Positions 17,200 to 60,030 of a stretch of DNA of 64,000 nucleotides are shown one piece after another. How positions within the stretch are numbered: the stretch's first letter is position 1; each line of letters opens with the position of its first letter. Under the pieces are notes generated by a model. It searched no databases, was not told where the DNA came from, and was given only the letters and a program-made list of their open reading frames with translations. The position numbers and the translations under genes are program-made. This DNA comes from Spongilla lacustris. Taxonomy: Eukaryota > Porifera > Demospongiae > Spongillida > Spongillidae. The stretch spans positions 1,437,075-1,501,074 of the forward strand of contig OX442437.1 in NCBI GenBank assembly GCA_949361645.1. The letters are read 5' to 3'.

Positions 17200-18520
17200 G
17201 AGAAATGAGAGGAGAGGATAGAGATGGGAAGGTGTTTGAGGGAAGGGTGTGAGGGAGGGAGGTGAGGAAGTATAGCACCTCTAAACTCCGCTCCCCTTCC
17301 ACCATCTTTCCTTACCTCACACCCAGCCTTCCACAACCTGATTATATGCTTGCATGCTCTTGTGGCACTTCATGTCTTCTGACATGTGTGCACTTGTAAG
17401 TACATGACGATACTAGTATCTGGGTAGCTCACAGCCAGCAGTATATCAGAATATGGATCTACAAAATATATGCCAGAAAGCGTACTTCAATTTTCTTCTC
17501 CAAGGACTTGAAATACACTGAATCAAACGCGGACATATAATTAATTGCCATTTAAGCTACTCTGTCAAGATGGCGGCTATTATGGTTACCATGGTCACGT
17601 ACCATTTCTGAGAACCCTCTAGGGAGGCTGGGTAGTCTATTCAGGAACAAACCAGAATAAGATGAAATTATTGTTTGACAAGTAAATTAAAAACATTCTC
17701 TATACGAGTGGTATATAGGATTTAAAAAGGAAGGAAACAAGGGTCTAATAAAAAGGGAAAAGGTAATAATCCTCTTACAAACGGGTTTGTTCCATGAGTT
17801 TTTTTTCTTCATGATATGAGAGATTGCAACTAGACAGTTTTGAAATGAGATCACTTGTTATTCATGATTCTCACACCCTCTCCGCTCCTGCCATATAACC
17901 AGTGCAGTTTACAAATTTAAAACTCAGTAAGCAATTACTGAAGGAGGAGGAGGTGTATGCTGTGTGGAAGGGGAGGGGGAATGGTGTAATGGTCCAAGAA
18001 GGGAGGAGGACAAGGTGGTAAGACCCCGATCTTACATTACCTCTAAATAACAAACGTCATGTCAGAGCATGTAGGCACAGGTTAACACGGCAGGCATGCT
18101 TCTATGTTGTAGGGCATGACATAGGTTTAGTAGGAAATTGAAGTAACTCGGGCAGGCATGTACGTGCATGACACGGCTACATGATTGTAGGTTGTAGACA
18201 CGGCACACATGTCATAGCTTAGCTTGTAAGCACACTCGAAGATGGCACATCATGCAAATAGGTTACGGCGCAATTAAGTGCACCAGATCCATCGCAAGGT
18301 GCGTGCCAATGCAACCTAGCCACTATTCGATGAAAGCTGATTTATTAATACAAAATCGTATTCATTCATACTGCAATTAATTTGCGTGTATTAAACAGCT
18401 TCTAATCCCCTACACCTACAGTCAATACATATCTAGCGACAGCTGCAACTAGCCAATGTTCCATTAAGGTGTACAGTACCTATTAGGAATAAATATGATC
18501 ATTACATAACACAATTGTGT
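17200..18520. other. Stretch without a supported gene
   Basis: I searched both strands for missing N-terminal formin exons and for a 3' untranslated region of the next gene. A weak formin-like block with donor gtaagga ends near 17308, but its family match is too poor to call. Confidence 0.4.
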
Positions 18521-21500
18521 TCACGTTAACTCACAATTACTTTGGTTGTCATGGCAAAATGTAGTAGGCATGTGAATGTGAAATAGGAAATGCAAAATAA
18601 TTTTGCATTGTTCATCATAGCATCCATGGTGACAAGGAATAAGTAGGAATACGAAATGGTTCAACTTACTGGCTGCATTGTTCATCATAGTTTCCATCGT
18701 GGCAAGGAATAAGTAGGCACATGGAGATGGAATCGCGGGAAATGCAATATCGTTTCTACTTACGTACTGCATTGTTCATCATAGTATCAATAGTGATAAG
18801 AAATAAGTATGAATACAAAATGCAACATCATTTCTACTTACAGGCTGCATAGTTTCCATAATGATAAGGGATAAGTAGACATATCATGTGAATGTGGAAT
18901 GGAAATGCAACATCATTCATATTCAGAAATGAGCAGTCACCAAAGTTGTACATAGTTGCATTTTGTATTCAGCTACTTAAAAATGGTACAGGATTTTGTT
19001 TTAGTTCTTTGTTCTGGACAGAAATTCAAGATTAATTTGTGATGATGTAATATAGGAAACACCAAAACTTGAATATTTCTAACAAAATAGCTTCAATGCC
19101 CATAAGGTATGTTTAGCTACTTCAGTTAATATAGGTTTTGCAAAAGAAACACTAGGTTTATATTGAAAGTTTCAGTTCCAGTAGTCAAAACAGTTATTTT
19201 TATAGACATGTACACAAATCTCTGTACATGTCTATGAAAATAACTGTTTTGACTACTGGAGCCAAAATCTCAATACAAACCTAGTGTTTCTTTTGCAATA
19301 TCTATATTAGCTAAGGCAGATAAACATACCTTATGGATATTTGAAGCATTAGTTCATTTAGTTAGTTAGCAATATTCAAGTTCTGGTGTTTCGTATGTGA
19401 ATTATAATATCTTGAATTTCTATGTAGAACTGAGAGCTGAAAAATCGAGAAAGTAAAAGATCCTGTACCTTTTTAAATATGCAAATATGCAACTTTGGAG
19501 ACCTGCTATAGGCATTTGCATCGTTCAAAAAAATATATATACATGAAAAAAGTGATATCATAATGACAAAATATGTACATTTTATTATAAACTACAAAAT
19601 ATCAAATTTGAATATTTATTTGCAGATGACCACAAAATGTACAGGTATTTCTCAATATATTCTACTTACAAGCTGCATTGTTCATCATAGTATTCACGGT
19701 GACAAGGAATAAGTAGGCACGTGATGGTGGATATTAAGTGCAACATCTTTTCTACTTACACCCTACATTGTTCATCATAGTATCCAGGGTGACAAGGAAT
19801 AAGTAGGCATGTGAAGGTGGAATACATCTTTTCTACTTACATCCTGCATTGTTCATATAGTATCCAGGGTGACAAGGTATAAGTAGGCATGTGAAGGTGG
19901 AATGGAAAATCCAACATCATTTCCACTTACACACTGCATTGTTCATCATAGTATCCATAGTGACAAGGATAAGTTGGTATGTGAAGGTCCTATAGGAAAT
20001 CCAACTCATTTCTACTTACGTACTGTAGTATTCATAATGGTTTCCATGTTGACAAGGAATAAGTAGGCATGTTAAAAAGTAATATTTGAAATGCAACATT
20101 TCTACTTACGCACTGCATTTTTAATAAAATCGATGGTGACAAGGAATAAGTAGGCATGCATGTGAAGATGCATGGAATAAGAAAGGCAAAATCTTTTCTT
20201 CTTACTTTCTGCATTGTTCATCATAGTATCCATGGTGACAAGGAATAAGTAGGCACATGAAAGTGTAATAGGAAATCCAACATCCTTTCTACTTACGAAC
20301 TGCATTGTTTATCATAGTATCCATGGTGACATAGAATAAGTAAACATGTGAAGTGAAATGGGAATTGCAAGATCATTTTTACTTACTCCCTGCATTGTTC
20401 ATCATAGTTACCATTGTGACAAGAAATCAGGAGGCATTTGAAGGCAGAATAGAAAATGTAACATCATTTCTACTTACACACTGCATTGTTTATCATAGAT
20501 AGTATCCCATGGTGACAAAGGAATAAGTAGGCATGTGAAGATGGAATAGGAAATTCAAGATCATTTCTACTTACTCCCTGCATTGTTCATCATAGTTACC
20601 ATTGTGACAAAGAATAAATAGGCGTGTGAAAGTGAAATAGGAAATACAACATCATTTCTACTTACGTTCTGCATTGTTCATCATAGTATCCATGGTGACA
20701 AGGAATTAATAGGCCTGTGGAAGTGAAATGGAAAATGCAACATCATTTCAACTTACTTGCTGCATTTGTTCATCATAGTATTCGTAGTGACAACGGAAAA
20801 AGTAGTCATGTGAAGATGGAATGGGAAATTCAAGATCATTTCTACTTACTACCTGCATTTTTCATCACAGTATCCATGATGACAAGGAATAAGTAGACAT
20901 GTGAAGACGGAATAGGAAATGCAAGATCATTTCTACTTACTCCCTGCATTTTTCATCATAGTTACCATTGTGACAAAGAATAAGTAGGCATGTGAAAGTG
21001 AAATAGGAAGTACAACATCATTTCTACTTACAGGCTGCATTGTTCCATTGTGACAAGGAATAATTAGGCATGTGAAGGTGCGTGGGATAGGAAATGCAAA
21101 ATCATTTCTACATGTACTTACACACTATAATTTTCAACATAGTATCCATGGTGACAAGGAATATGAAGGTATGTGAAAGCTAAATAGGAAATACAACATC
21201 ACTTCTACTCACATCCTGCATTATTTATCATAGCATTCATGGTGACAAGGGATAAGTAAACATGTGAAGATGGAATATAGGAAATCCAAGATAATTTCTA
21301 CTTACTAACTGCAATATTCATCATAGTTTCCAAGGTGAAAAGGAATAAGTAGGCATGTTAAGGTGCAATAGGAAATGCAATATCACTTCTACTTACAACC
21401 TGCATTATTCATCATAGCATTCATGGTGACAAGGGATAAGTAAACATGTGAAGATGGAATATAGGAAATCCAAGATGATTTCTACTTACGTACTGCATTG

Positions 21501-22480
21501 TTCATCATAGTATTCATGTGACAAGTAGTAAGTAGGCATGTGAGGGTGGAATACAAAATACAACATCATTTCTACTTACTCCCTGCATTTTTCATTATAG
21601 TTCCATGGTTGCAAGGAATAAATAGCATGTGAATGTGGAATAGGGAATGCAAGATCATTTGTACTTACACACTGCATTGTTTATCATAGTATCCATAGTG
21701 ACAAGGAATACATAGGCATGTGAAAGTGGAATAGGAAATGAAACATCATTTCTACTTACAAACTGCATTGTTCATCATAGTATCCATGGTGACCGCAAGG
21801 AATAAGTAGGCATGTGAAAATGGAATAGGAATTGCAACATCTGTTCTACTTACAAACTGCATTGTTCATCATAGTATCCATGGTGACCGCAAGGAATAAG
21901 TAGACATGTGAAAGTGGAATATGAAGTGCAACATCATTTATACTTACAGTCTGCCGCATTGTTCATTATATAGTTTCCATAGTGACAACAGATAAGTAGG
22001 TATGCTAACAAACAATTTTCCTTACACGCTGCATTGTTCATCATAGTATCCACAGTGATAAGGAATAAGTAGGCATGTGAAGGTGGAGTAGGAAATACAA
22101 TATCATTTCTACTTACAGGCTGCATTGTTCATTATAGTTTCAATGATGACAAGGGATAAGTATGCATGTTAAAAAAACGCAGCATCATTTCTACTTACAC
22201 ACTGCATTGTTCATCGTAGTATCCATGGTGACAAGAAATAAGTAGGCATAAGAAGGTGGAAATAGGAAATGCAACATCATTTCTACTTACAAGCTGCATT
22301 GTTCATCAAGGTGAAAAGGAATACGTAGGCATGTTATGGTGCATGGAATAGGAATAAGACTTACCTTCTGTATTGTTCACGTTAGTATCCATGGTGATGA
22401 AGAATAAGTAGGCATGTTTGAATTGAAATGCAACACTTTGAGACTTACAGGTTGCATTGTTTTAATAGCATCCATGGTGA
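18520..22480 (-). repeat. About 90-bp tandem array, interrupted once; each unit carries splice sites
   Basis: On the plus strand a unit reads roughly ttctacttac, NNN, ctgcattgttcatcatag, then tatccatggtgacaagg and aataagtaggcatgtgaagg. Spacing between triplets is 74-97 bp, mostly 89-94. Sequence around the triplet is nearly fixed from unit to unit, while the triplet itself varies freely. The two edge units are broken: at 22449 the acceptor AG has become AA, and at about 18600 the donor half is deleted. The array is not CRISPR: units are imperfect and diverge gradually. Confidence 0.95.
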
Positions 22481-22833
22481 TAAGGATTAGGTGGGATTTA
22501 ATTGGTAAGACCATGTTATTAACAGACATTCACCTCTTCCGTCCTCAAACTTCCATAATTTCTGTTCATTTCTGCGTAATATTAAGTTATAACTGAATAC
22601 GCCTACTCTCTCAACGGCGCAGCCTTACCCCGTAAGATGTCGTCGCGGTTAGTTAACAAGTCGCTGTTTTCCACGACTTCATTGCTCATCTCAATGAGAT
22701 CATCCTCAAGCTGTGAGTTAGGTGGAAATCTTACCATAGTTTCTCTGTGGCAGTCGCAAACCTTAATGTGCCTGGGACGAGCATCAGCAAACACGGTCAG
22801 CAGGGACACAAGAAGAGCCAATTCCTTCAGCAT
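18537..22833 (-). CDS. Secreted cysteine-rich peptide gene with a tandem array of single-codon (3-nt) exons
   Basis: Exon 1 (22629-22833) encodes a signal peptide (MLKELALLVSLLTVFADA) and a short acidic region, ending in phase 1 at G|gtaagg. Exon 2 (22534-22571, acceptor acgcag, donor gtgaat) returns the phase to 0. Then come 34 units, each with AG, three variable bases, and GTAAG (once GTGAG). Triplets, given by lowest plus coordinate: 22365, 22291, 22199, 22117, 22026, 21948, 21854, 21760, 21669, 21580, 21490, 21397, 21306, 21213, 21122, 21032, 20941, 20850, 20757, 20666, 20575, 20478, 20387, 20297, 20206, 20110, 20020, 19931, 19841, 19760, 19670, 18842, 18764, 18670. The first 17 read KLCPRTFFCGYVLDCPG. 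The last 17 read VQNGCGFKCYCDGLPYP. The next acceptor (18540-18541) is followed by TAA (18537-18539). Total 115 aa. The six array cysteines space as C-x5-C-x5-C-x6-C-x3-C-x-C; the end resembles antistasin-type inhibitors. Splicing is inferred, motifs are seen. Confidence 0.65.
18955..19493. repeat. Fold-back (inverted repeat) insertion within the array
   Basis: Imperfect arms of about 255-270 bp (18955-19211 and 19223-19493) face each other across a short spacer. The centre contains gtctatgaaaataactgt-type sequence mirrored on both sides. It sits between two units of the array, so one intron is about 825 nt instead of about 88. Looks like a MITE-type fold-back element; no coding capacity. Confidence 0.85.
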
Positions 22834-23100
22834 TCTCTGTTGGTAAGAAATGAGAGAATTGCTCGAACGATTAATTTAAATACACTACTGACAAAGAAAC
22901 CTAATAAGGCCACTCAAATAAGATTCCTTGCTTTTCATTTTCCGCCCGCATCATTTATTGGTACCGCATGCATGCTCACTTTCACTATTACATCACATGA
23001 TCATGTAACTTCATTGTATTAATAATTGGCATAACAAATGCTATCTTGAACGTATCAGTTGTGTTTTTTTTCAAAAACTACTATCCTTCAGTATTTGCCA
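22834..23100. promoter_or_regulatory. Upstream region of the single-codon-exon gene
   Basis: The 5' flank of the minus-strand peptide gene. I see no convincing TATA box; the stretch is moderately AT-rich. Listed only to mark where the promoter should be. Confidence 0.3.
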
Positions 23101-23179: not shown

Positions 23180-23427
23180 CCATGAAACACAACACTGAAC
23201 TTGAAGCCATTTTCTTATGAAACACAACACTGAACTTGAAGCCATTTTCTCATAAAACACAACACTGAACATAAAGCCATTTTCTTATGAAACACAACAC
23301 TGAACTTGAAGCCATTTTCTTATTAAACACAATACTGAACTTGAAGCCATTTTCTTTTGAAACACAACATGCACTGAACTTGAAGCCATTTTCTTTTGAA
23401 ACACAACACTGAACTTGAAGCCATTAC
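23180..23427. repeat. About 36-bp tandem repeat, seven copies
   Basis: Copies of ttcttatgaaacacaacact plus gaacttgaagccatt, with small changes. Minus-strand frames of FSVVFYEKMASS-type are read-through of the repeat. Confidence 0.9.
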
Positions 23428-35429: not shown

Positions 35430-36236
35430 CCCCACCTTACCTCAGTTACCTCATACCTACCTCAGTTACCTCATACCTACCTCAGTTACCTCATACCTAC
35501 CTCAGTTACCTCATACCTACCTCAGTTACCTCATACCTACCTCAGTTACCTCATACCTACCTCAGTTACCTCATACCTACCTCAGTTACCTCATACCTAC
35601 CTCAGTTACCTCATACCTACCTCAGTTACCTCATACCTACCTGAGTTACCTCATACTTACCTCAGTTACCTCATACCTACCTCAGTTACCTCATACCTAC
35701 CTCAGTTACCTCATACCTACCTCAGTTACCTCATACCTACCTCAGTTACCTCATACCTACCTCAGTTACCTCATACCTACCTCAGTTACCTCATACCTAC
35801 CTCAGTTACCTCATACCTACCTCATACCTACCTCAGTTACCTCATACCTACCTCAGTTACCTCATACCTACCTCAGTTACCTCATACCTACCTCATACCT
35901 ACCTCAGTTACCTCATACCTACCTCAGTTACCTCATACCTACCTCAGTTACCTCATACCTACCTCAGTTACCTCATACCTACCTCAGTTACCTCATACCT
36001 ACCTCATACCTACCTCAGTTACCTCATACCTACCTCAGTTACCTCATACCTACCTCAGTTACCTCATACCTACCTCAGTTACCTCATACCTACCTCAGTT
36101 ACCTCATACCTACCTCAGTTACCTCATACCTACCTCAGTTACCTCATACCGACCTCAGTTACCTCATACCTACCTCAGTTACCTCATACCTACCTCAGTT
36201 ACCTCATACCTACCTCATACCTACCTCAGTTACCAT
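35430..36236. repeat. 20-bp minisatellite
   Basis: About 40 almost perfect copies of ctcagttacctcatacctac; some copies lack the ctcagtta half. Very low divergence points to recent expansion. Frames of LPHTYLSYLIPTSVTS are artefacts. Confidence 0.97.
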
Positions 36237-44504: not shown

Positions 44505-47500
44505 TCCTCTGTCTTCTACACAGCTATATGCCATGCTACACAGCTATCAGCCATGCTCCACAGCTATATGCCATACTCCACAGCTATCTGCAATGCTCAA
44601 CAGCTATCTGCCATGCTCCACGGCTATCTGCCATACTCCACAGCTATCTGCCATACTCCACAGCTACCTGCCATGCTACACAGCTATCTGCCATGCTCCA
44701 TAGCTATCTGCCATGCTCAACAGCTATCTGCCATACTCCACAAGCATTGATGCTACACTTGCAGCTATCTGCATTGATGCTCCACAGCTATCTGCCATAC
44801 TCCCATAGCTATCTGCCGTACAGTTATCTTCCATGCTCCATAGCTATCTGCCATACGAGCACACAGATATCTGCCATACTCCACAGCTATCTGCCATGCT
44901 CCACAGCTATCTGCCATGCTCCACAGCTATCTGCCCAGCTATCTGCCATGCTCCAAAGCTCGCTGCCATGCTCCACAGCTATCTGCTATACTGCACAAGC
45001 CGCTATCTGCCATTTGATGTTCCACGGCTATCTGCCATGTTCCACAGCTATCTGCCATGTTCCACAGCTATCTGCCATGCGCCACAGCTAGCCATGCTCC
45101 ATAGTTATCTGCCATATGAGCACACAGCTACTGTATCTGCCATGCTCCACAGCTATCTGCCATGCTCCATAGCTATCTGCCATGATCCACCGCTATCTGC
45201 CATGCTCTGCCATATGAGCACACAGCTATCTGCCATGCTCCATAGCTATCTGCCATGCTCCATAGCTATCTGCCATGCTCCACAGCTATCTGCCATGCTC
45301 CACAGCTATCTGCCATGCTCCACAGCTATCTGCCATGCTCCACAGCTATCTGCCATGCTCCACAGCTATCTGCCATGCTCAACAGCTATCTGCCATACTC
45401 TACAAGCAGCTATCTGCCATTGATGTTACACATGCAGCAATCTGCCATGCTCCACAGCTATCTGCCATGTTCCACAGCTATCTGCCATGCGCCACAGCTA
45501 GCCATGCTCCATAGTTATCTGCCATATGAGCACACAGCTACTGTATCTGCCATGCTCCACAGCTATCGGCCATGCTCCATAGCTATCTGCCATACAGCTA
45601 TCTCCCATGCTCCATAGCTATCTGCCATACAGCTATCTCCCATGCTCCATAGCAATCTGCCATACGAACACACAGCTATCTGCCATCCACAACTAAAGTG
45701 TATCTGCAATGCTTCACAGCTATCTCCCATGTGCCATAGCTATCTGCAATTCTCCATAGCTATCTGCCATACAAGCACATTAGCACACAGCTATCTGCCA
45801 TACTTCACAGCTATCTGCCATGCTCAACAGCTATCTGCCATGCTTCACAGCTATCTCCCATGTGCCATAGCTATCTGCCATACTCCATAGCTATCTGCCA
45901 TACCAGCACACAGCTATCTGCAATACTCCATAGCTATCTGCCATACAAGCACACAGCTATCTGCCATACTTCACAGCTATGTGCCATGCTCCATAGCTAT
46001 CTGCCATGTTCCATAGCTATCTGCCATGCTCTGCCATACGAGCACACAGCTATCTGCCATGCTCCACAGCAATCTGCCATGCTCCACAGCTATCTGCCAT
46101 GCTCCACAGCTACTTCACAGCTATCTGCCATGCTCCACTGCAGCTATCTGCCATACTTCACAGCTATCTGCCATGCTCCACAGCTATCTGCCTGCTACAC
46201 AGCTATCTGCCATACTCCACAGCTATCTGTGATCCTCCATAGCTATCTGCCATACAGCTATCTGCCATGCTCCATAGCTATCTACCGTGCTCCATAGCTA
46301 TCTGCCATACGAGCACACAGCTATCTGCCATGCTCCACAGCTATCTGCCTGCTACACAGCTATCTGCCATACTCCACAGCTATCTGTGATCCTCCATAGC
46401 TATCTGCCATACAGCTATCTGCCATGCTCCACAGCTATCTGCCATGTTCCACAGCTAGCCATGCTCCATAGTTATCTGCCATATGAGCACACAGCTACTG
46501 TATCTGCCATGCTCCACAGCTATCGGCCATGCTCCATAGCTATCTGCCATACAGCTATCTCCCATGCTCCATAGCTATCTGCCATACAGCTATCTCCCAT
46601 GCTCCATAGCTATCTGCCATACGAACACACAGCTATCTGCCATCCACAACTACAGTGTATCTGCAATGCTTCACAGCTATCTCCCATGTGCCATAGCTAT
46701 CTGCAATTCTCCATAGCTATCTGCCATACAAGCACATTAGCACACAGCTATCTGCCATACTTCACAGCTATCTGCCATGCTCAACAGCTATCTGCCATGC
46801 TTCACAGCTATCTCCCATGTGCCATAGCTATCTGCCATACTCCATAGCTATCTGCCATACCAGCACACAGCTATCTGCAATACTCCATAGCTATCTGCCA
46901 TACAAGCACACAGCTATCTGCCATACTTCACAGCTATGTGCCATGCTCCATAGCTATCTGCCATGTTCCATAGCTATCTGCCATGCTCTGCCATACGAGC
47001 ACACAGCTATCTGCCATGCTCCACAGCAATCTGCCATGCTCCACAGCTATCTGCCATGCTCCACAGCTATCTGCCATGCTCCACAGCTACTTCACAGCTA
47101 TCTGCCATGCTCCACTGCAGCTATCTGCCATGCTCCACAGCTATCTGCCATACTTCACAGCTATCTGCCATGCTCCACAGCTATCTGCCTGCTACACAGC
47201 TATCTGCCATACTCCACAGCTATCTGTGATCCTCCATAGCTATCTGCCATACAGCTATCTGCCATGCTCCATAGCTATCTACCGTGCTCCATAGCTATCT
47301 GCCATACGAGCACACAGCTATCTGCCATGCTCCACAGCTATCTGCCTGCTACACAGCTATCTGCCATACTCCACAGCTATCTGTGATCCTCCATAGCTAT
47401 CTGCCATACAGCTATCTGCCATGCTCCACAGCTATCTGCCATGTTCCACAGCTAGCCATGCTCCATAGTTATCTGCCATATGAGCACACAGCTACTGTAT

Positions 47501-50500
47501 CTGCCATGCTCCACAGCTATCGGCCATGCTCCATAGCTATCTGCCATACAGCTATCTCCCATGCTCCATAGCTATCTGCCATACAGCTATCTCCCATGCT
47601 CCATAGCTATTTGCCATACGAACACACAGCTATCTGCCATCCACAACTACAGTGTATCTGCAATGCTTCACAGCTATCTCCCATGTGCCATAGCTATCTG
47701 CAATTCTCCATAGCTATCTGCCATACAAGCACATTAGCACACAGCTATCTGCCATACTTCACAGCTATCTGCCATGCTCAACAGCTATCTGCCATGCTTC
47801 ACAGCTATCTCCCATGTGCCATAGCTATCTGCCATACTCCATAGCTATCTGCCATACCAGCACACAGCTATCTGCAATACTCCATAGCTATCTGCCATAC
47901 AAGCACACAGCTATCTGCCATACTTCACAGCTATGTGCCATGCTCCATAGCTATCTGCCATGTTCCATAGCTATCTGCCATGCTCTGCCATACGAGCACA
48001 CAGCTATCTGCCATGCTCCACAGCAATCTGCCATGCTCCACAGCTATCTGCCATGCTCCACAGCTACTTCACAGCTATCTGCCATGCTCCACTGCAGCTA
48101 TCTGCCATGCTCCACAGCTATCTGCCATACTTCACAGCTATCTGCCATGCTCCACAGCTATCTGCCTGCTACACAGCTATCTGCCATACTCCACAGCTAT
48201 CTGTGATCCTCCATAGCTATCTGCCATACAGCTATCTGCCATGCTCCATAGCTATCTACCGTGCTCCATAGCTATCTGCCATACGAGCACACAGCTATCT
48301 GCCATGCTCCACAGCTATCTGCCTGCTACACAGCTATCTGCCATACTCCACAGCTATCTGTGATCCTCCATAGCTATCTGCCATACAGCTATCTGCCATG
48401 CTCCACAGCTATCTGCCATGTTCCACAGCTAGCCATGCTCCATAGTTATCTGCCATATGAGCACACAGCTACTGTATCTGCCATGCTCCACAGCTATCGG
48501 CCATGCTCCATAGCCCATGCTCCATAGCTATCTGCCATACAGCTATCTCCCATGTTCCATAGCTATCTGCCATACGAACACACAGCTATCTGCCATCCAC
48601 AACTACAGTGTATCTGCAATGCTTCACAGCTATCTCCCATGTGCCATAGCTATCTGCAATTCTCCATAGCTATCTGCCGTAAAAGCACATTAGCACACAG
48701 CTATCTGCCATACTTCACAGCTATCTGCCATGCTCAACAGCTATCTGCCATGCTTCACAGCTATCTCCCATGTGCCATAGCTATCTGCCATACTCCATAG
48801 CTATCTGCCATACCAGCACACAGCTATCTGCAATACTCCATAGCTATCTGCCATACAAGCACACAGCTATCTGCCATACTTCACAGCTATGTGCCATGCT
48901 CCATAGCTATCTGCCATGATCCACCGCTATCTGCCATGCTCTGCCATACGAGCACACAGCTATCTGCCATGCTCCACAGCGATCTGCCATGCTCCACAGC
49001 TATCTGCCATGCTCCACAGCTACTTCACAGCTATCTGCCATGCTCCACTGCAGCTATCTGCCATGCTCCACAGCTATCTACCATACTTCACAGCTATCTG
49101 CCCTGCTCCACAGCTATCTGCCTGCTACACAGCTATCTGCCCTACTCCACAGCTATCTGTGATCCTCCATAGCTATCTGCCATACAGCTATCTGCCATGC
49201 TCCACAGCTATCTACCGTGCTCCATAGCTATCTGCCATACGAGCACACAGCTATCTGCCATGATCCACAGCTACAGTGTATCTGCCATACTCCACAGCTA
49301 TCTGCCATGCTCCACAGCTATCTGACATGCTCCACAGCTATCTGCCATGCTCCACAGCTATCTGCCATGCTCCACAGCTATCTGCCATACAAGCACACAG
49401 CTATCTGCCATACAAGCACACAGCTATTTGCCATACAAGCACACAGCTATCTGCCATGCTCCACGGCTATCTGCCATGCTCAACAGCTATCTGCCATACT
49501 CTACAAGCAGCTATCTGCCATTGATGCTACACATGCAGCAATCTGCCATGCTCCACAGCTATCTGACATGCTCCACAGCTATCTGCCATGCTCCACAGCT
49601 ATCTGCCATGTTCCACAGCTATCTGCCATGCGCCATAGCTAGCCATGCTCCATAGTTATCTGCCATATGAGCACACAGCTACTGTATCTGCCATGCTCCA
49701 CAGCTATCTGCCATGCTCAATAGCTATCTGCCATACAGCTATCTCCCATGCTCCATAGCTATCTGCCATATGAGCACACAGCTATCTGCCATCCACAACT
49801 ACAGTGTATCTGCAATGCTTCACAGCTATCTCCCATGTGCCATAGCTTTCTGCAATTCTCCATAGCTATCTGCCATACAAGCACATTAGCACACAGCTAT
49901 CTGCCATACTTCACAGCTATCTGCCATGCTACACAGCTATCTGCCATGCTACACAGCTATCTGCCATACAAGCACACAGCTATCTGCCATACAAGCACAC
50001 AGCTATCTGCCATGCTCCACGGCTATCTGCCATGCTCAACAGCTATCTGCCATACTCTACAAGCAGCTATCTGCCATTGATGCTACACATGCAGCAATCT
50101 GCCATGCTCCACAGCTATCTGCCATGTTCCACAGCTATCTGCCATGCGCCACAGATAGCCATGCTCCATAGTTATCTGCCATATGAGCACACAGCTACTG
50201 TATCTGCCATGCTCCACAGCTATTGGCCATGCTCCATAGCTATCTGCCATACAGCTACATGTATCTCCCATGCTCCATAGCTATCTGCCATACAGCTATC
50301 TCCCATGCTCCATAGCTATCTGCCATATGAGCACACAGCTATCTGCCATCCACAACTACAGTGTATCTGCAATGCTTCACAGCTATCTCCCATGTGCCAT
50401 AGCTATCTGCAATTCTCCATAGCTATCTGCCATACAAGCACATTAGCACACAGCTATTTGCCATACTTCACAGCTATCTGCCATGCTCAACAGCTATCTG

Positions 50501-52330
50501 CCATGCTTCACAGCTATCTCCCATGTGCCATAGCTATCTGCCATACTCCATAGCTATCTGCCATACCAGCGCACAGCTATCTGCAATACTCCATAGCTAT
50601 CTGCCATACGAGCACACAGCTATCTGCCATACTTCACAGCTATGTGCCATGCTCCATAGCTATCTGCCATGTTCCACCGCTATCTGCCATGCTCTGCCAT
50701 ACGAGCACACAGCTATCTGCCATGCTCCACAGCTATCTGCCATGCTCCACAGCTATCTGCCATGCTCCACAGCTATCTGCCATGCTCCACAGCTATTGCC
50801 ATGCTCCACAGCTATCTGACATGCTCCACAGCTATCTGCCATGCTCCACAGCTACTTCACAGCTATCTGCCATGCTCCACTGCAGCTATCTGCCATGCTC
50901 CACAGCTATCTGCCATACTTCACAGCTATCTGCCATGCTCCACAGCTATCTGCCTGCTACACAGCTATCTGCCCTACTCCACAGCTATCTGTGATCCTCC
51001 ATAGCTATCGGCCATACAGCTATCTGCCATGCTCCACAGCTATCTACCGTGCTCCATAGCTATCTGCCATACGAGCACACAGCTATCTGCCATGATCCAC
51101 AGCTACAGTGTATCTGCCATACTCCACAGCTATCTGCCATGCTCCACAGCTATCTGACATGCTCCACAGCTATCTGCCATGCTCCACATCTATCTGCCAT
51201 TCTCCATAGCTATCTGTGATACGAGCACACAGCTATCTGCCATACTTCACAGCTATCTGCCATGCTCCAAGCTATCTGCCATGCTTCACAGCTATCTGCC
51301 ATGCTCAACAGCTATCTGCTATACTCCACAGCTATTTGCCATACGAGCACATAGCTATCTGCCATGCTCCACGGCTATCTGCCATGTTCCACAGCTATCT
51401 GCCATGTTCCACAGCTATCTGCCATACTCCACAGCTAACTGCCATGATCCACAGCTATCTGCCATGATCCACAGCTATCTGCCATGATCCACAGCTATCT
51501 GCCATGCTCCACAGCTATCTGACATGCTCCACAGCTATCTGCCATGCTCCACATCTATCTGCCATTCTCCATAGCTATCTGTGATACGAGCACACAGCTA
51601 TCTGCCATACTTCACAGCTATCTGCCATGCTCCAAGCTATCTGCCATGCTTCACAGCTATCTGCCATGCTCAACAGCTATCTGCTATACTCCACAGCTAT
51701 TTGCCATACGAGCACATAGCTATCTGCCATGCTCCACGGCTATCTGCCATGTTCCACAGCTATCTGCCATGTTCCACAGCTATCTGCCATACTCCACAGC
51801 TAACTGCCATGATCCACAGCTAACTGCCATGATCCACAGCTATCTGCCATGATCCACAGCTATCTGCCATGATCCACAGCTATATGCCATACGAGCACAC
51901 AGCTATCTGCCATGCTCCACAGCTATCTGCCATGCTTCACAGCTATCTGCCATGCTCCACAGCTATATGCCATGCTCCACAGCTATACGCAATGCTCCAC
52001 AGCTATATGCCATACGAGCACACAGCTATCTGCCATGCTCCATAGCTATCTGCCATGCTCCACAGCTATCTGCCATGCTCCACAGCTATCTGCCATGCGT
52101 CACAGCTATCTGCCATGCTCCACAGCTATATGCCATGCTCCACAGCTATATGCCATACGAGCACACAGCTATCTGCCATGCTCCATAGCTATCTGCCATG
52201 CTCCATAGCTATCTGCCATACGAGCACACAGCTATCTGCCATGCTTTACAGCTATCCACAGCTATCTGCCATGCTCCACAGCTGTCTGCACCACCCCACA
52301 GCTATCTGCCATGCTCCACATGTTCACTGA
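44505..52330. repeat. About 20-bp satellite with higher-order units near 0.96-1.0 kb
   Basis: Hundreds of copies of ctatctgccatgctccacag with variants (tactcca, tgctcaa, acgagcacacag). Blocks repeat at about 957-997 bp: the same variant order starts near 45642, 46599, 47596 and 48552, and again more loosely at 49748 and 50305. A 365-bp block is duplicated at about 51125 and 51490. Long frames of SAMLHSYLPCSTAICH are artefacts. Confidence 0.97.
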
Positions 52331-58458: not shown

Positions 58459-58524
58459 TGATGTGTCTGGTGTGTGCTGGTGTGTTATGTAGGTATGTGC
58501 TGGTGTTTGCATGTTGTGTTTGCC

Positions 58525-60030
58525 CATACACCAGCCTATACACCATACACCAGCCTAGACTTCATACACCAGCCTGTACACCATACACTAGCCTGTACAC
58601 CATACACCAGCCTGTACACCATACACCAGCCTGTACACCATACACCAGCCTATACACCATACACCAGCCTAGACCCCATACACCAGCCTAGACCCCATAC
58701 ACCAGCCTGTACACCATACACCAGCCTGTACACCATACACCAGCCTAGACCCCATACACCAGCCTAGACACCATACACCAGCCTGTACACCATACACCAG
58801 CCTGTACACCATACCCCAGCCTAGACCCCATACACCAGCCTACCATACACCAGCCTGTACACCATACCCCAGCCTAGACCCCATACACCAGCCTGTACAC
58901 CATACCCCAGCCTAGACCCCATACACCAGCCTGTACACCATATACCAGCCTATACACCATACACCAGCCTAGACCCCATACACCAGCCTGTACACCATAC
59001 ACCAGCCTGTACACCATACACCAGCCTAGACCCCATACACCAGCCTGTACACCATATACCAGCCTATACACCATACACCAGCCTAGACCCCATACACCAA
59101 ACTATACACCTATACACCATACACCAGCCTGTACACCATACACCAGCCTGTACACCATACACCAGCCTGTACACCATACACCAGCCTATACACCATACAC
59201 CAGCCTATACACCATACACCAGCCTAGATCCCATACACCAGCCTATACACCTATATACCATACACCAGCCTGTACACCATACACCAGCCTATACACCATA
59301 CACTAGCCTGTACACCATACCCTAGCCTGTACACCATACACCAGCCTGTACACCATACACCAGGGTATACACCAATTACCATACACCAGCCTATACACCA
59401 TACACCAGCCTATACACCATACACCAGCCTATACACCTGCCTAGATCCCATACACCAGCCTATACACCTATACACCATACACCAGCCTGTACACCATACA
59501 CCAGCCTATACACCATACACTAGCCTGTACACCATACCCCAGCCTGTACACCATACACCAGCCTGTACACCATACACCAGCCTATACACCATACACTAGC
59601 CTGTACACCATACCCCAGCCTGTACACCATACACCAGCCTGTACACCATACACCAGCCTATACACCATACACCAGCCTATACACCATACACCAGCCTATA
59701 CACCATACACCAGCCTATACACCATACACCAGCCTGTACACCATACACCAGCCTATACACCACACACCAGCCTGTACACCATACACCAGCCTATAGCTAT
59801 ACACCATACACCGGCCTGTACACCATACACCAGCCTGTACACCATACACCAGCCTGTACACCATACACCAGCCTGTACACCATACACCAGCCTGTACACC
59901 ATACACCAGTCTGTACACCATACACCATCCTATACACCATACACCATCCTATACACCATACACCATCCTATACACCATACCCCAGCCTGTACACCATACC
60001 CCATACATCAGCCTATACATCATACTTAAA
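58525..60030. repeat. 19-bp minisatellite
   Basis: About 78 copies of cagcctgtacaccatacac with variants (tatacacc, tagacccc). Some longer sub-blocks recur. Confidence 0.97.

Follow-up and report, generated by a model that had tools for sequence, protein, structure and literature searches.

We examined a 64,000-nucleotide (nt) stretch of the genome of Spongilla lacustris (contig OX442437.1, positions 1,437,075 to 1,501,074 of the forward strand), referred to here as the window and numbered from its first base. On its minus strand, at 18537..22833, we found a gene built around 34 tandem units, each of which holds an acceptor AG, three bases and a donor GT. With a probability of about 0.9, we consider it to be a protein-coding propeptide gene, the variable part of which is predicted from the DNA to be spliced together codon by codon, one codon per exon. 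The window gene is one member of a large freshwater-sponge multigene family, a point absent from the initial annotation of this stretch.

A pattern search of the minus strand from 22367 to 18670 returned 34 AG-NNN-GT[AG]AG units, with GTAAG in 33 of them and GTGAG in one, which confirms the initial annotation's description of the inner units. Their spacing is 74-97 nt, and a single 828-nt gap is the exception. Single-codon exons 1-31 (19670..22367) are separated by introns of 71-94 nt and read KLCPRTFFCGYVLDCPGVQNGCGFKCYCDGL, while exons 32-34 (18670..18844; CCT, TAC and CCA) read PYP. The triplets together spell KLCPRTFFCGYVLDCPGVQNGCGFKCYCDGLPYP, with 20 distinct triplets, six cysteines and no stop. 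Mean pairwise identity among the 34 units was 29% in the triplet, 77% in the 12 bases before the CAG and 67% at positions +9 to +20. The CAG itself was 96% identical and the donor (+1 to +8) 91%, values that the search pattern in part dictates.

AG and GT were found around three bases, and the array is entered in phase 0 and closed by a stop. Exon 1 (22762..22833, 72 nt), delimited by the gene model and by paralogue alignment, encodes MLKELALLVSLLTVFADARPRHIK, whose start is hydrophobic and signal-peptide-like. After intron 1 (22711..22761, 51 nt, GTTTGC...ACAG), the gene model places exon 2 (22629..22710, 82 nt), encoding the acidic propeptide LEDDLIEMSNEVVENSDLLTNRDDILR plus 1 nt, then intron 2 (22572..22628, 57 nt, donor GTAAGG) and the 38-nt exon 3 (22534..22571), which ends in phase 0. 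The initial annotation had proposed one signal-peptide exon ending in phase 1. The phase holds, at the end of exon 2, and the single exon is replaced by exon 1, the 51-nt intron and exon 2; it was seen as one exon because intron 1 reads open in the window gene. Two of its further proposals were borne out, namely the 38-nt exon restoring phase 0 and the TAA behind the first AG past the array (AG at 18541-18540, TAA at 18539-18537), with which the terminal exon starts (18537..18541). Its central claim, that the array amounts to 34 consecutive codons with an exon for each, is supported, as comparative predictions held in nearly all of the material.

The comparison across the genome was made in an assembly that totals 248,560,934 bases across 51 contigs; the window's contig accounts for 6,794,245 of them. 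Using the window gene's reading of exons 1-2 as a query, we obtained 17 matches at E <= 0.001, one of them the gene itself. The DNA of one paralogue gave at least 41 matches, some of them two per gene, when the best 40 of 59 candidates were scored. At least five units were present in 15 of 17 loci (the window and 16 paralogue stretches) and in 30 of 34 more loci, which partly overlap; four of the latter (L028, L050, L052 and L054) showed no units within the stretch examined. Array runs are 5-57 exons long across loci. One locus, L023 (C17:6053900-6061900), carries a very long array with several broken sites and looks partly decayed. The exact string GAACAATGCAG-NNN-GTAAGTAT occurs 368 times in the genome, and its reversed control not once. 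About 65 clusters, several of them single units, were counted by hand among 335 of these 368 places; the window's own array, of the GTAAGTAG type, is not one of them.

Conservation within the units was assessed in 423 units from 21 loci, which were located by 23 upstream intron bases alone, so that splice sites were not used for their selection. The acceptor A was kept in 405 and its G in 396 of these units, and the donor G and T were kept in 377 and 370, respectively. The commonest bases at the three codon positions were found in 163, 136 and 243 units. This distribution bears on the explanation that the array is a tandem repeat in decay whose splice-like motifs arose by chance, or a series of tandem non-coding RNA units. 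A 91 base pair (bp) tandem repeat is indeed detected as such, and a few of its units are broken, but AG and GT are among its most conserved bases and the triplet is the least conserved part, and the reversed pattern is absent from the genome. We regard this explanation as extremely improbable.

The distance from the AG to the donor was 3 in 371 of the 423 units, 6 in 27, 9 in one, 12 in two and 21 in one, lengths under 2 having been excluded by the script. Where indels had shifted the acceptor, the AG-NNN-GTAAG spacing was often preserved. The flanks GAACAATGCAG and GTAAGTAT had no genome occurrence with 0-2 bases between them, and 16 with 4-30 bases between them (6 nt in 12 cases, 9 nt in two and 4 nt in two). 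Another explanation would treat the units as ratchet points, through which a long intron is removed by recursive splicing and of which the triplet is a by-product. An AG near a GT does resemble known recursive sites, but those consist of AG|GT with nothing left over, whereas here the interval of 0-2 bases never occurs and the triplets avoid stops. We therefore judge ratchet points to be a very improbable account.

Gene models were tried for 22 loci and were complete for 16 of them, the window included; L010, L018, L022, L028, L048 and L058 are those without a complete model. In the family, exon 1 measures 63-78 nt (phase 0), and intron 1 measures 42-68 nt. Intron 1 was delimited in 18 loci, of which 17 carry in-frame stops in it and one, the window gene, does not. 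Exon 3 is 35, 38, 50 or 53 nt long, which is 2 modulo 3 in all 16 complete models, and phase 0 is reached at its end in every one. One locus with a complete model, L015, has no array within its stretch.

Stop codons are avoided in the triplets. Only two were present among 369 three-base units (TGA in L013 and TAA in L019), compared with 13.9 expected when codon positions were shuffled within arrays, and none of 10,000 shuffles gave two or fewer. In both arrays, no further three-base GTRAG unit comes after the stop. No in-frame stop was found in the 31 longer units of the 423-unit set. In L037, which lies outside that set, a TGA is the last of seven units within the stretch examined. Genome-wide, two of the 368 exact units read TGA, with all 75 T-first units covered: the one at C5:1351661 is the 3'-most unit of its own cluster among those listed, and the one at C17:6046180 stands alone, about 7.6 kilobases (kb) beyond the L023 units listed.

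The terminal exon opens with a stop directly at its acceptor (AAAG|TGA or TAA) in 13 of 14 loci, 12 recognised by pattern and L021 by eye. In the fourteenth, L013, the array ends in the TGA unit instead of a stop-first terminal exon. The 14 loci are the window, L009, L011, L012, L013, L014, L016, L017, L019, L020, L021, L024, L057 and L058; the long loci outside this set are L010, L015, L018, L022, L023, L055 and L056.

The introns were then compared for signs of constraint. In 280 introns of 60-110 nt, AG occurred 43 times, which is 0.06 of the expectation from base composition, and never within 30 nt of the acceptor, where the last bases are biased because of how the acceptor was chosen. Substitutions that create an AG numbered 13 against 75 expected in the 134 introns of exactly 88 nt; of six control dinucleotides, TG stood at 3.8 of its expectation and the others lay between 0.6 and 1.3. 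The motif CTTAAC or CTTCAC, its A mostly at -50, was present in 140 of the 280 introns, and another yTnAy, a loose motif, in 134; six had neither. Between the CTTAAC/CTTCAC motif and the acceptor, an AG was found in 9 of the 140 introns.

Six pairs of diverged copies were also compared. The two halves of L009 are unlike at 2 of 175 splice-motif sites and at 136 of 1938 other sites (7%); for L058 and L043 the figures are 0 of 112 and 68 of 1694 (4%). Three more copy pairs differ at 0/70, 0/77 and 0/98 splice-motif sites; in those other pairs, the non-motif sites include flanks that are possibly not homologous. Replacements predominate among the codon changes of four of the six copy pairs; L055/L056 has no codon changes, and L058/L043 shows two among 16 codons compared, both synonymous. 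From the sequence, the splice motifs and the AG-free introns look constrained.

We propose that three ordinary exons would encode a signal peptide and an acidic propeptide, that the variable mature peptide would be assembled by the splicing of consecutive one-codon exons, and that the terminal exon, stop codon first, would close the frame. A unit of about 91 bp would correspond to an intron of about 88 nt and one codon. The codon fills the exonic side of both splice sites, and therefore recognition would rest on the intron alone. Candidate intron signals are the near-invariant GTAAGT donor, the CTTAAC/CTTCAC that half of the introns carry near -50 and that resembles a branch point, and the nearly AG-free stretch down to AATGCAG. 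Splicing is likely to be stepwise and intron-defined, because U1 and U2AF could hardly occupy both ends of a 3-nt exon together; each ligation would set a new codon beside the next GTAAGT donor. Tandem duplication and intron recombination may add, remove and shuffle whole codons while leaving the frame intact.

The gene models have a hydrophobic N-terminus, as seen by eye, and their predicted ends differ in composition. Cys-rich ends are predicted for the window gene, L009, L057 and L058, a Pro-Pro-Gly-like end for L014, a Gly-rich end for L011 and Asp-rich ends for L051 and L053, besides others. The paralogue arrays of L051 and L053, both on C17, read as aspartate-rich runs. L009 would encode two collinear Cys domains of about 25 codons each, with RR between them and GRR-stop at the end; some of its units have weaker donors.

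A Gly followed by one or more basic residues and a stop ends the predicted product in 9 of 14 loci (L009, L011, L012, L014, L016, L020, L021, L024 and L058). In L011 this end occurs at the first of two terminal exons, and in L014 the last unit has a GC donor. The window gene, which ends in YP-stop, and L013, L017, L019 and L057 lack such an end. Amidation of a peptide is usually signalled by a C-terminal Gly with basic residues after it. A search of the genome for PF03712 (copper monooxygenase) found 11 fragments, of a domain shared by the amidating enzyme PAM and other copper monooxygenases.

These ends also bear on whether the predicted codon-by-codon splicing is constitutive. The exons might instead be included or skipped combinatorially, so that one gene yields many peptides, a mode that is compatible with our best explanation. 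The units are frame-neutral and their splice sites near-identical; since the exons are three bases long, every subset of them keeps the frame. Schistosome micro-exon genes (MEGs), as described in PMC10526429, do yield many proteins by alternative splicing of their central exons. On the other hand, the conserved order of the double domain in L009, the Cys patterns and the Gly-basic-stop ends suggest that ordered inclusion matters. We consider the combinatorial mode possible but doubtful.

To find protein relatives, we searched with the window gene and with an alignment of eight paralogues, for which the best 8000 candidates by shared words were scored; all that emerged were relatives of exons 1-3. 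The named protein relatives are gene models of Ephydatia muelleri. P0003 and P0006 have starts similar to exon 1, and intron 1 is absent from P0003 and P0005. P0003, P0006 and P0007 are similar to exons 1-3 and then continue into unrelated sequence, the match breaking off where exon 3 ends or close to it. According to PMC7385117, the gene models of the E. muelleri genome were predicted by Augustus trained on RNA-seq; judging by their names, P0003, P0006 and P0007 probably belong to that set. Public poly(A) RNA-seq reads of Spongilla lacustris are found under ERR12708738 (PMC12141999).

The absence of array codons from these three models is what would be expected if exons 1-3 and the terminal exon were real and the array were a skipped intronic minisatellite, with exon 3 joined to the stop exon. 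Skipping would keep the frame as well, since phase 0 is reached by the end of exon 3 and a stop opens the terminal exon. But a skipped minisatellite leaves unexplained the 3-nt spacing, the avoidance of stops, the depletion of AG and the presence of hypervariable triplets between conserved sites, and we find it improbable.

Several observations weigh against codon-by-codon splicing as the explanation of the family. None of the 15 protein records read continues past exons 1-3 into array codons. Because the loci are paralogues, their terminal exons and unit motifs do not count as independent evidence. That exon 2 leaves phase 1 in the models is no independent test either, its acceptor having been picked by script from the AGs in frame; the length of exon 3 modulo 3 was not imposed by the script, but its end motifs were picked after the sequences had been viewed. 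L010 and L015 have no array by the criterion used for the 17 loci first compared. L022 has an array, but its modelled exon 3 measures 40 nt (1 modulo 3) and contains a stop, and an open exon 2 was not found; either the locus is broken or its model is wrong.

Within the 423 units, four have a length not divisible by three and 17 are unreadable. The 27 six-base units lie mostly at CAGCAG-type tandem acceptors, chiefly in L023, and their length is ambiguous: the acceptors of L023 read CAGCAG|ACT, and therefore 6-nt and 3-nt readings compete. Degenerate or longer units come after the stop units of L013 and L019, including a six-base unit in the former and a nine-base unit starting with TGA in the latter. 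L045 and L046 differ at 36 of 91 splice-motif sites, probably through loss of collinearity. Extended pairing with U1 past +6, considered as the cause of GTAAGTAT, found no support in the two U1 genes read of ten found in the genome (L059 and L060): these start (T)AACTTACCTGG, which does not pair with the AT at +7/+8. The usual U1 5' end is ATACTTACCTG.

The surroundings of the window array hold additional features. Intron 3 (22368..22533), delimited by eye and by the gene model, contains one degenerate unit before the array, near 22449-22453, which reads AA-CCT-GTAAGT (CCT at 22449-22451) and has lost its acceptor (AA for AG). A second degenerate unit, after the array in the last intron (18590..18609), has lost both AG and GT. 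Both fall outside the inner units of which the initial annotation speaks. Between units 31 and 32, the intron of 825 nt contains a long nested inverted repeat (18936..19502) with arms of up to 78 nt, which resembles a foldback element or a miniature inverted-repeat transposable element. Upstream of the gene, a TATA-like box, TATTTAAA, lies about 49 nt ahead of the ATG (22875..22882, minus strand), and similar boxes, as judged by eye, precede the ATG of several paralogues. A possible polyadenylation signal, AATAAA (18341..18346, minus strand), is located about 190 nt beyond the stop. Just upstream of the gene there is a 35-bp tandem repeat (23182-23425), which contains ATGGCTTCAAGTTCAGT on the minus strand. 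The window also contains a very large 20-bp satellite of about 391 copies (44519-52320) and further satellites of 19-25 bp at 58524-60003, 35438-36217 and 160-759.

Among known systems, the predicted products are like conotoxin- or neuropeptide-type precursors in their conserved N-terminal part, their variable Cys-, Pro- or Gly-rich end and their basic or Gly-basic ends. In those precursors the mature peptide lies within one or few exons, whereas in the sponge genes the mature part would be spread over many one-codon exons.

The schistosome MEGs are the nearest known kind of gene. According to PMC10526429, the MEGs of S. mansoni form a multigene family of secreted proteins with a variable product and a run of tiny exons, mostly multiples of three, a layout also predicted for the sponge family, whose products may likewise be secreted. 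The MEGs contain 10-20 microexons per gene, with introns of 0.1-5 kb; the exon sizes are given as 6-81 bp in the body text and as 3-81 in the abstract, most exons having 15 bp. Compared by layout alone, the sponge genes differ in that nearly all exons are 3 nt, the introns are similar to one another at about 88 nt, and the units form a tandem array. Central microexons of 6-81 bp, mostly 15, characterise MEGs, whereas the length is 3 in 371 of the 423 sponge units.

In plants, PMC8831610 describes 1-nt exons in APC11 and VPS55 and reports that exons of 1-15 nt are spliced. The VPS55 microexon is accompanied by GTRAGT donors, like the sponge exons. Unlike these, the plant microexons described in that source are single or paired within ordinary genes, and no whole peptide is spelled by codon. 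The initial annotation knew of no gene made of dozens of 3-nt exons, and our literature search likewise turned up none: no published account of arrays of 3-nt exons was found by title and start of abstract, with preprints and most subscription journals outside its scope. We rated the layout of the gene as new and its parts, microexons and peptide precursors, as already known.

If the proposed reading is true, splicing can put together a protein codon by codon, in a series of more than 30 ligations. The family would then test models of spliceosome action on exons that are too short to be bound at both ends, and would offer a natural case of codons that evolve as modules. It would also represent a peptide repertoire overlooked by gene finders, as with E. 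muelleri P0003, P0006 and P0007, which match only to about the end of exon 3. We suggest tentatively, at somewhat less than even odds, a wider reading, in which exon equals codon and a neuron-less animal keeps dozens of genes for secreted peptides in the form of strings of codon cassettes. These would evolve by the gain, loss and swap of whole codons through recombination in their similar introns, and might give many peptides per gene by the skipping of frame-neutral exons. These peptides would be Cys-rich, Pro/Gly-rich or poly-acidic, and some of them may be amidated like hormones.

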